A stretch of DNA of 64,000 bases from Leptolyngbya sp. NIES-3755 (GTDB taxonomy: Bacteria; Cyanobacteriota; Cyanobacteriia; Leptolyngbyales; Leptolyngbyaceae), in assembly GCA_001548435.1 (NCBI GenBank), contig AP017308.1, positions 5,527,030 through 5,591,029 on the forward strand, read 5' to 3'. The notes beneath the pieces are model-generated. The model ran no database searches. It worked only from the letters and a program-made list of their open reading frames with translations, and was not told the origin of the DNA. Below are positions 17,312 to 19,794 of the stretch, piece by piece (the stretch's first letter is position 1; the number at the start of each line of letters is the position of its first letter). A program made the translations under genes and the position numbers.

Positions 17312-18106
17312 TTACAATCCCAATGCAAGCTGCAATTCAGGAGTAGCACTCACCGTCGTTGGTAATGGCGCAGGATCAAGACTCACCGCAGAACAATAGC
17401 GGGAATAAGCACATCGATCGCATTGTTTCCCCGGCGTGGGTTCCCATGTTTCATCATGTCGCAACCGTACTGCCAAATCTGAAATCACCGCTTGCACTTG
17501 CTTTTTATGTCTGCGAGTCGCTCTATAGCGAACTTTCTCGCCTGTTCTCAAAAACAGCAAGGTCAAGTATTTCAGACTTTGTTGATAGGTCTGTTCCAAC
17601 GCCAGGTAATACAATCCGATCTGCAAATCCATCTCATCAGATTCTGGAACCTTCAGATCGCGGCTCGACTTGTAATCGATTAGCTCCAAACCATCATTGA
17701 GATAGTCAATCCGATCGTATCTTCCCGTAATGCAGAATTCGAGGCTTTCAACTCTCAGAAACGCCTGAATTCTTCCCTCAACTGCTAACGGTTGGCGTAA
17801 CGATGGAGCATCCAAAATGAACTTCTCATAGTAGCGCTCAAGAATCGATCGACCATCTTCAATTTGACCCGGAGTTAAGCCAGTGGCATGTTCTTCCCAA
17901 CAGCGGTGTACCCATTGCAAATCGGGTGTGGCTTCGTGGTAGTGCCAATCCCGATAAACCATCGCTAAAGCTTGATGCAATGCAGTTCCTAATGCTGCTG
18001 ATCCGAAGAAATCATTGCTAGTAAGTCGTCGCTCGTACCGCAAATAGTAGGCGTATGGACAACGACTATACGACTGAAGTTTTGTGGCAGAAATCTGATA
18101 AGGCAT
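17312..18106 (-). CDS. PD-(D/E)XK nuclease of the RecB/Cas4-like family
   Basis: The 264-residue protein starts MPYQISATKLQSYSRCPYAYYLRYER, the classic N-terminus of RecB-like nucleases with the first iron-sulphur cysteine. The nuclease core is GRYDRIDYLNDGLELIDYKSS (Asp, then Asp and Lys of the active site). A C-terminal CDRCAYSRYC supplies three more cysteines, so a 4Fe-4S cluster like that of Cas4/AddB is likely. No cas genes or repeats are nearby, so it is a solitary repair- or recombination-type enzyme. ATG at 18106 is preferred over the TTG at 18118. Confidence 0.88.
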   Translation of the reverse strand: MPYQISATKLQSYSRCPYAYYLRYERRLTSNDFFGSAALGTALHQALAMVYRDWHYHEATPDLQWVHRCWEEHATGLTPGQIEDGRSILERYYEKFILDAPSLRQPLAVEGRIQAFLRVESLEFCITGRYDRIDYLNDGLELIDYKSSRDLKVPESDEMDLQIGLYYLALEQTYQQSLKYLTLLFLRTGEKVRYRATRRHKKQVQAVISDLAVRLRHDETWEPTPGKQCDRCAYSRYCSAVSLDPAPLPTTVSATPELQLALGL

Positions 18107-18148
18107 GATTAGAGGCAAACAAGGTTATAGAGCGGAAATCCGAAGTGG

Positions 18149-18379
18149 TTAAATCTGTTCGACTGGACGTTTGAAGATCGAGTCCAGGTAAATTCGAGCG
18201 GTTGCACGATCGGTCTGACGTTCATTCGCCGGACGATTCTGCAATAAGAATAAAGACAACGCCGCAGACATCACTCGATCTTGATCCCAGTCTGGGCGTG
18301 TATCGAGGAACGATTGAAACGATTGATGCAGTGCTTCAGGAATTTCGACGAAAAGACTAATGTTGCTATCCATATCCAT
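18149..18379 (-). CDS. DUF2811-family small protein
   Basis: The 76-residue product has the DUF2811 pattern: ISLFVEIPEALHQSFQSFLDTRPDWDQDRVMSAAL, then LFLLQN. The family is nearly confined to cyanobacteria and has no assigned function. A TGAGG motif lies upstream of the ATG. It is 42 bases upstream of the nuclease gene on the same strand, so the two may be co-transcribed. The DnaA-box-rich gap begins just beyond its start. Confidence 0.85.
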   Translation of the reverse strand: MDMDSNISLFVEIPEALHQSFQSFLDTRPDWDQDRVMSAALSLFLLQNRPANERQTDRATARIYLDSIFKRPVEQI

Positions 18380-19041
18380 CAAACCTCAAAAATGAATCGC
18401 AGTAGGTGAATTCCAACCGTCCGATTTCCGCAAAAATTCGCAACAGAAACCTACGCCAGTCCGATTCGATCTTCCAATCTCCAACTTGTGGAAATCTTGT
18501 CTCGCGGTCGTCTGAGCGCTCTTGGGTTAGTCGCTACATTCTGCGCGATCGCAGGAAGAAGATCAACATCAAGAAAAGTAACGATCGCTAGCTAGATCAA
18601 AATTACTGAACGGTAGAATCGGCATTCCAGCCATTTTTTCGTTACTCGGCTTCATAAAAGGAGCAATTCTAGGCTGGGGATTACGATCTCGATCGACTTT
18701 TCCACAGTCCTCCGAAAAATGACGATCCTAGCCCGATCCCCTGTGGAAAACTTTCAATTCGATGTGGAAAAGGTGTGGAAAAGAAATCTCCAACTTGTGG
18801 ATAGCCTGTGGAGAACTTGGGGAAAACCCGATTGATTGTAAAGTTTTGTTAAGATTTTCAGAGAACTAGACTTTCGGCTGTGAGTTTAGGAATCAAATTG
18901 GGAATTCTCTATTTCCAGTGCGGGAAACATCCGTAAATCTACGATCGTTGCGGACTTCCGTACCTCTTTCGGTCATCGCCAATCTAGACATAAGGAGAGA
19001 TAATAGAGTGTTCGTTTGTTGCCGATCGTTAAAGTTCTCGC
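18380..19041. other. Long intergenic region with DnaA-box cluster
   Basis: This 662-base gap separates the leftward DUF2811 gene from the rightward terC gene. It has no convincing open frame. Its middle carries the DnaA-box cluster annotated separately, followed by an AT-rich run (about 18831-18862). AAGGAGAG at about 18991 is too far from the terC ATG to be its ribosome-binding site. Confidence 0.6.
18698..18862. other. oriC: Candidate replication origin (DnaA-box cluster)
   Basis: Four exact copies of the nonamer TTTTCCACA lie within 85 bases: one on the plus strand (18698-18706) and three on the minus strand, read as TGTGGAAAA (18742-18750, 18763-18771, 18774-18782). Two near matches follow: TGTGGATAG (18796-18804) and TGTGGAGAA (18807-18815). 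One outlier, TGTGGAAAT, sits at 18487-18495. An AT-rich stretch with runs of T and A (18831-18862) could be the unwinding element. TTTTCCACA is the DnaA-box form reported for Synechococcus origins. Flanking genes diverge from here. No dnaA or dnaN gene is in the window. Confidence 0.65.
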
Positions 19042-19794
19042 ATGATAGACATCGATTTACCTGCCCAGTTCAGTCCCCAAACCTTCTTGCTCTTGCTCGT
19101 TTTGGTGGCGTTAGAGTGCGTCTTGTCGGCTGATAATGCGATCGCGCTTGCTGCCATCACTCAAGGCTTGCAAAACCCGAAACTAGAGCGCCGCGCTTTA
19201 AACATTGGTTTGGTGTTCGCCTACGTTTTACGAATGTCACTGATTTTGGCAGCCTCGTGGGTGATCGGATACTGGCAATTCGAGTTGGCGGGCGCGCTTT
19301 ACCTTCTATGGTTGGTGTTTCAGCACTTTAAGCCCTCTAGTGAAGACGAAGAAGGCGTTCACCACGGACCTCGATTTGCTTCGCTTTGGCAGGCGATTCC
19401 GGTGATTGCGCTGACCGATTTGGCGTTTTCGCTCGATAGTGTCACGACTGCGATCGCGGTTTCCCAAGATACGTGGCTGATTCTGCTCGGAGGCACGATC
19501 GGGATTGTGGCACTGCGATTTATGGCAGGCTTATTTATTGTCTGGTTGGAAGAATTTACACATTTAGAAGATGCGGGTTATGTCACCGTATCGTTTGTAG
19601 GTCTTCGATTGTTGCTGCGGGTGTTCAATGATCAACTTGTGCCACCGGAATGGTTGATGATTACGATGGTCGCGATCGTCTTTGCTTGGGGATTTTCCAA
19701 GCGGAATGACATGGCGGAAGTGAGCGCGATCGCGGAATCTCAGAACGAGTCAATGCCTGAGATTGAGCCTGTTTCAGAGAAAGATCCAGTTTAG
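19042..19794 (+). CDS. TerC-family integral membrane protein
   Basis: The 250-residue protein has about seven membrane helices with the TerC hallmarks: LVALECVLSADNAIALAAI near the N-terminus and LTDLAFSLDSVTTAIAVS in the middle, both with acidic residues inside helices. TerC-like proteins are linked to metal-ion (manganese or calcium) export and to thylakoid function; the ion is not known here. The C-terminal tail after about residue 225 is acidic and soluble. It is convergent with ndk, with a shared hairpin between. Confidence 0.88.
   Translation: MIDIDLPAQFSPQTFLLLLVLVALECVLSADNAIALAAITQGLQNPKLERRALNIGLVFAYVLRMSLILAASWVIGYWQFELAGALYLLWLVFQHFKPSSEDEEGVHHGPRFASLWQAIPVIALTDLAFSLDSVTTAIAVSQDTWLILLGGTIGIVALRFMAGLFIVWLEEFTHLEDAGYVTVSFVGLRLLLRVFNDQLVPPEWLMITMVAIVFAWGFSKRNDMAEVSAIAESQNESMPEIEPVSEKDPV

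Follow-up and report, generated by a model that had tools for sequence, protein, structure and literature searches.

The window, that is, the whole stretch of 64,000 nucleotides analyzed here, corresponds to C1:5527030-5591029, where C1 is a contig of 6,244,812 bp in a genome totalling 6.76 Mb. Two genes diverge from the intergenic region under study, in agreement with the earlier note on this DNA. The minus-strand one (18149..18382; start uncertain, either TTG at 18382 or ATG at 18379) encodes a DUF2811 protein (PF10929) of 76-77 aa, the profile match exceeding the gathering score (hmmscan E 6.5e-24; 84.4 bits vs a cut-off of 26.6). The plus-strand gene is terC (19042-19794) of the YkoY type (TIGR03716). 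Going by the name of this model, terC of the YkoY type is riboswitch-controlled elsewhere; no Rfam RNA matched within 18100-19100 at E values of up to 1.

The intergenic region harbors a dense cluster (18698-18826) of the nonamer TTTTCCACA, the cyanobacterial DnaA box (PMC4674748). The four exact copies and the close variants described in the earlier note were all recovered. Three exact boxes share the minus strand (18742-18750, 18763-18771, and 18774-18782), and the fourth, on the plus strand (18698-18706), is inverted relative to them. The minus-strand series continues with a two-mismatch box (CTATCCACA; 18796-18804) and two one-mismatch boxes (TTCTCCACA, 18807-18815; TTTTCCCCA, 18818-18826). 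Together, these form a tandem array of six boxes (18742..18826) whose starts are 21, 11, 22, 11, and 11 bp apart, that is, one or two helical turns. The array lies about 330-450 bp before DUF2811, and the start of terC follows ∼215 bp past its distal end. A lone one-mismatch box on the minus strand (ATTTCCACA; 18487-18495) is located closer to the gene, ∼116 bp before the DUF2811 start, and is kept in the 7 copies of the same DUF2811 paralogue examined within the genus.

Window-wide, boxes with ≤1 mismatch were not more numerous than expected by chance (22 vs 23.2); it is their clustering that is unusual. Genome-wide, 99 exact copies of TTTTCCACA occur in 6.76 Mb, compared with 41 copies of the reversed pattern used as control. 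At the genome-wide rate of exact boxes, 3e-8 clusters of four boxes in 85 bp are expected, so that chance, which the earlier note had wanted checked, is excluded for such a cluster. Several consensus DnaA boxes are therefore clustered beyond chance at a position away from dnaN, as is characteristic of a regulatory site bound by DnaA. Two or more exact tandem boxes with a gap of ≤30 bp are present at three other sites (C1:1211969, C1:1749195, and C1:4317026). At the second of these, outside the window, three exact boxes (C1:1749195-1749244) lie 20 and 21 bp apart just 3′ of an ORF resembling GMP synthase, and box pairs similar to this group were found in other members of the genus among the matches listed.

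Two further elements accompany the boxes. On the minus strand, 8 bp past the distal end of the array, lies TTAACAAA-AC-TTTACAAT (18835..18852), which deviates by one mismatch from the consensus of HLR1, the binding site of RpaB (KTTACAWW-N2-KTTACAWW; PMC13421787, PMC11633204). Between array and gene, a block of the minus strand (18512..18574; GATCTTCT..CGATCGCGCA..ATGTAGCGACTAACC..AGCGCTCAG) is strongly conserved in 12 aligned sequences and includes GCGATCGC and TAGCGACT. The block is perhaps a promoter with the transcript start, a leader RNA, or the site of another regulator; the first of these options stays tentative because a scan of 18100-19100 for sigma-70 promoters recognized none on the minus strand.

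Box arrays upstream of DUF2811

DUF2811 was present in all 58 genomes searched (that of the window included), all of which also contain DnaA. This search yielded 94 DUF2811 places, and 91 copies in 57 cyanobacterial genomes were examined upstream (left out were two copies of one genome, which is covered in the further set of 20 copies below, and one copy of another). At least three boxes with ≤1 mismatch were found within 1 kb upstream of 79 of the 91 copies, in 54 of the 57 genomes, and at least two exact boxes upstream of 65 copies, in 48 genomes. A separate search returned 80 named DUF2811 loci, a set overlapping with the 91 copies; among the 77 of them with a full upstream kilobase (three have <1 kb), 76 had at least three boxes with ≤1 mismatch. 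The array was also present at 16 of 20 further copies from eight families, which were hand-picked from the listed matches and include 8 copies from 7 genomes of one small-genome family. By comparison, 1-kb pieces of this chromosome contained at least three boxes in 3 of 800 cases and two exact ones in 2 of 800, the cluster before dnaN (see below) being among the latter. At the named loci, the boxes were concentrated 250-750 bp upstream of DUF2811, with the flanks at background level.

Among the 12 of the 91 copies without an array of three boxes, 8 are extra copies in genomes having another arrayed copy, and 2 have <350 bp of upstream sequence; three genomes are without any arrayed copy. Often, there are two arrayed DUF2811 copies per genome, and the second paralogue of the genome studied here (C1:1211383-1211565) likewise has an array of its own. 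Counted from the side of the boxes, the box pairs listed comprised at least 99 clusters in 31 genomes, of which 36, spread over 27 of these genomes, were situated before DUF2811, 6 near dnaA, and 57 elsewhere; the last group includes the dnaN clusters as well as one cluster whose DUF2811 falls off the contig, and dnaA positions were entered for seven genomes only. The six clusters within 2 kb of dnaA belong to other members of the same family, which suggests an autoregulation of dnaA that would be missing in the genome studied here.

The other neighbor of the array behaved differently. Matches to terC were found in 56 of the 58 genomes, and the upstream regions of 30 loci were examined. Within the genus, the array precedes terC in 6 of 8 genomes (one of the six without a DUF2811 match on its stretch), and two members with terC elsewhere retain the array at DUF2811. 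At 24 terC loci whose 1.5-kb flanks contained no match to DUF2811 (two genus members and 22 further ones), no box cluster was present before terC. The earlier note had called both flanking genes unrelated, which holds for terC as an incidental neighbor; DUF2811, in contrast, is its conserved partner. A position conserved relative to one gene (79 of 91 copies; 76 of 77 named loci) is a further characteristic of a DnaA-bound regulatory site, and this possibility, which the note had mentioned as the alternative to an origin, is strongly supported at the level of sequence, binding itself being presumed.

Not only the presence but also the architecture of the array recurs across cyanobacteria. The boxes are mostly in the orientation of DUF2811, and distances between boxes on the same strand peaked at 11, 21/22, 32/33, 43/44, and 65 bp. 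For boxes on opposite strands, 44 bp was the commonest distance (43-46 bp in 52 of 206 upstream regions, and in 0 of 18 of the third set, see below), followed by 65, 76, 120, and 109 bp, each of them close to a multiple of 11. Such distances are the pattern to be expected if DnaA molecules touch each other on one face of the helix. In the window, the inverted box at 18698 starts 44 bp away from the direct box of the array nearest to the gene and reads TGTGGA(A/T)AA in 12 aligned sequences, its own included.

The HLR1-like element is enriched at these loci as well. In the genus and its neighbors, TTTACAAAACTTTACA or a near form of it, which fits HLR1, is situated just beyond the array; in many other genera, an HLR1-like site is found on the opposite strand, at the gene side of the array. 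With ≤1 mismatch, such sites were present upstream of DUF2811 in 26 of 89, 32 of 79, and 2 of 18 regions in the three sets scanned (those with <600 bp upstream, 2 of 91, 1 of 80, and 1 of 19, were left out), compared with 13 of 3720 Markov-shuffled sequences. With 60 of all 186 regions inside this limit and 126 beyond it (16 of 18 in the third set), HLR1 is enriched at DUF2811 but far from universal. The dnaN cluster contained no match to HLR1.

DUF2811 in genomes with and without DnaA

To relate DUF2811 to DnaA, 388 genomes of the class with a completeness of ≥95% were surveyed with PF00308, scoring the 9 best candidates per genome; 18 of the 388 had no DnaA match. DUF2811 (PF10929) was present in 368 of the 370 DnaA-positive genomes, and the two without it are drafts, whereas only 5 of the 18 DnaA-negative genomes contained it (Fisher p 1.5e-18, with genomes counted as independent irrespective of kinship, and with DUF2811 as the only family compared). 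The 18 DnaA-negative genomes represent 11 genera and 6 families, one of which supplies 6, and these counts are of genomes, not of loss events. Among 14 named control genomes, S. elongatus was the only one with DUF2811.

Where DnaA is missing, the remaining DUF2811 loci are eroded in part. Two of the five copies are broken by internal stops and three are intact. Two exact boxes were kept at none of the five, compared with 10 of 19 copies in DnaA-positive relatives (hand-picked members of families also containing DnaA-negative ones), and three boxes with ≤1 mismatch at one of the five, compared with 15 of the 19. The gene is gone in the DnaA-negative members of g87 and g137, two genera with DnaA-positive sisters, as well as in those of g90, f35, and f41. 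A broken copy is present in g154 and, within g133, in one of three genomes; in g91 the gene is intact but has no boxes. In as many as seven of the eight lineages, loss of dnaA thus goes along with loss or breakage of DUF2811; shared ancestry may link some of them. Of the five DnaA-negative genomes that consist of a single contig, two lack DUF2811, one has a broken copy, and two an intact one. Both the gene and its site, therefore, depend on the presence of DnaA in the sense of a correlation over genomes.

Proposed control of DUF2811 by DnaA

The reading we favor, with a probability of roughly 0.72, is that the cluster is a DnaA-binding control region outside oriC, that it governs DUF2811, and that the product of this gene acts in a DnaA-dependent process. 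On the helically phased boxes, which precede the gene by ∼330-450 bp, DnaA molecules would probably bind cooperatively to form a short oligomer. RpaB, at the adjoining HLR1-like sites, would perhaps act jointly with DnaA and supply light and redox input, such that transcription of DUF2811 would be set by DnaA activity together with the photosynthetic redox state. As the array is located far upstream, activation or remodeling would be expected rather than simple blocking of a promoter. In S. elongatus, less DnaA is bound to oriC in darkness or when photosynthetic electron flow is inhibited (PMC6478999). The DUF2811 protein, in turn, would most likely tune DnaA itself or a step early in replication, and the gene would become useless, and decay, once dnaA has been lost. 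Occupancy by DnaA and by RpaB, the sign of the regulation, and the role of the protein are what we infer here from the arrangement and distribution of the sequences. Points against control of DUF2811 include the distance of the array from the start codon, the lack of a recognized promoter, the three DnaA-negative genomes retaining an intact gene, the DnaA-negative copy that keeps three boxes, the two DnaA-positive drafts without the gene, the 12 of 91 copies without an array of three boxes, and the many regions in which HLR1 is beyond one mismatch.

A more specific proposal, to which we would give somewhat less than even odds, is that DUF2811 is a cyanobacteria-specific partner of DnaA (a regulator, a cofactor, or the main effector controlled by it) whose promoter might read both the DnaA array and, via RpaB and HLR1, the redox state. 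Hda, SeqA, DiaA, YabA, SirA, and Soj are regulators of DnaA and might offer a parallel to DUF2811 as a small protein useful only with DnaA; by Pfam and PDB profile searches, DUF2811 is related to none of them. If true, such a partner would be a missing link between light and the initiation of replication and, in cyanobacteria able to replicate without DnaA, the job that DnaA has retained.

Clusters of DnaA boxes at genes other than the origin are known; to judge by the literature covered here, one that is tied, class-wide, to an uncharacterized gene mostly missing together with dnaA would be new. For Bacillus subtilis, eight intergenic DnaA regions outside oriC have been described (cited in PMC7198777). 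In DnaA-regulated promoters of this kind, a box cluster likewise precedes a gene outside oriC, whereas the DUF2811 array occurs on one gene throughout the class, is situated far upstream, is enriched for HLR1, and belongs to a gene mostly missing with dnaA. The elements near the array likewise resemble KTTACAWW-N2-KTTACAWW sites of the HLR1/RpaB regulon; the RpaB targets named in the available passages on this regulon include photosynthesis, clock, and sigma-factor genes, with DUF2811 not among them. In the PMC literature, most subscription papers being outside this search, no paper naming DUF2811 or PF10929 was found, and titles and abstract openings of the literature on cyanobacterial DnaA gave no link of a class-wide DnaA array to DUF2811. 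The loss of dnaA has been re-examined in PMC7198777, the available text of which mentions no gene resembling DUF2811, and which states as an open question what DnaA does in cyanobacteria replicating without it. According to the same paper, strains deleted for dnaA have been constructed in Synechocystis 6803, Nostoc 7120, and Synechococcus 7002. With its class-wide array, DUF2811 offers a concrete, testable gene for the role of DnaA and for its light-dependent binding.

Other readings of the cluster

datA, DARS1, and DARS2 of Escherichia coli are chromosomal clusters of DnaA boxes outside oriC that modulate DnaA by promoting hydrolysis of DnaA-ATP or nucleotide exchange. The boxes before DUF2811 could similarly act on DnaA, as a titration or reactivation locus, with DUF2811 as a hitchhiker or a locus-bound helper. 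The likeness is one of box layout (a cluster of several strong boxes outside oriC, an inverted box at 43-46 bp in 52 of 206 regions), and the frequent occurrence of two arrayed copies per genome would suit such a locus. The array is, however, tied in fixed orientation to a protein-coding gene: in many genera, and at both paralogues, it points the same way and lies at roughly the same distance from the DUF2811 frame, and most genomes without dnaA have no DUF2811 either. Because the gene mostly goes together with dnaA, and because the position of the array is fixed to it, a pure DNA site is an inadequate explanation, and we regard this reading as unlikely.

That the cluster is the chromosomal origin, lying beside unrelated genes, had been the leading idea of the earlier note, and was rejected as the main reading. 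As the note had stated, neither dnaN (C1:4317401) nor dnaA (C1:448000) is near the cluster (C1:5545727). Directly before dnaN, however, lies a larger cluster (C1:4317026-4317372) with 5 exact boxes and 9 with ≤1 mismatch, in both orientations, compared with 4 and 7 in the window; it is phased too, with the same 21/11/11 spacing of the same nonamer. No DnaA-box cluster was found at dnaA. In predicted cyanobacterial oriCs, dnaN is on one side of 55 out of 68, mostly with the same box (PMC4674748). The nine-box cluster is thus likely to be the oriC of this chromosome. The origins beside dnaN in Synechococcus elongatus, Anabaena 7120, and Cyanothece 51142 share with the array in the window the nonamer TTTTCCACA and the intergenic clustering, whereas the latter is not beside dnaN, faces DUF2811, recurs at the paralogue, and coexists with a separate dnaN-linked cluster.

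The note had also named a skew minimum elsewhere, along with a larger box cluster, as evidence that would speak against an origin; the cluster was found, whereas the skew was uninformative. Over 83 stretches, which amount to 1.66 of 6.24 Mb, the best two-arc split of GC skew was not significant (p = 0.31), and the minimum of the mean-corrected cumulative skew, at 1.18 Mb, is close to neither the window cluster nor dnaN. Irregular GC skew has been described as usual in cyanobacteria (PMC7198777). In favor of an origin, or of one among several, are the four exact boxes phased as at dnaN, their intergenic position between divergent genes, the AT-rich sequence towards terC, and the several replication start sites in some cyanobacteria (PMC7198777); the cluster may be a weak or conditional origin. 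Against it stand the larger cluster in two orientations before dnaN, by a modest margin (9 vs 7 boxes), the usual neighborhood of dnaN to oriC, the arrays before both of the far-apart DUF2811 paralogues of this genome and before most copies examined elsewhere, and the fact that the skew does not single out the window cluster. As the dnaN cluster is the larger one and dnaN the usual neighbor of oriC, an origin in the window is improbable. Programs that predict oriC from DnaA boxes could take DUF2811 arrays for origins.

The motif might also be recognized by a factor different from DnaA, such as DUF2811 regulating its own gene, this protein being small and encoded next to the array. A strand-helix-helix-like pattern, seen by inspection, made a DNA-binding protein conceivable, and a ribbon-helix-helix fold was considered on this basis; it gained no support from profile searches of Pfam and PDB with 25 members or their profile (E up to 10), which gave no significant match to DNA-binding proteins. 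The best PDB match (E 0.91) was to a segment of a TetR-family protein, and AlphaFold models from 26 and 62 sequences were poor (pLDDT 57.8 and 56.7), with three helices and no strand. Since, moreover, the same nonamer with the same 21/11/11 spacing is found at the dnaN cluster, TTTTCCACA is the cyanobacterial DnaA box (PMC4674748), and both DUF2811 and exact boxes are less frequent in genomes lacking dnaA, another binder is very improbable. Finally, that the boxes serve the divergent terC, with DnaA regulating a metal-transport-like membrane protein whose gene starts ∼215 bp past the array, deserves hardly any credence and was rejected, as the array stays at DUF2811 where terC is elsewhere and is absent from the 24 terC loci without DUF2811 as a neighbor.

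A minor observation concerns the smaller contig (C2), on which a weak match to the Bac_DnaA domain was found (C2:167595-167942; E 2.6e-9), with many similar copies in one other genome. This match probably represents an IstB/DnaC-like helper ATPase encoded by a transposon.
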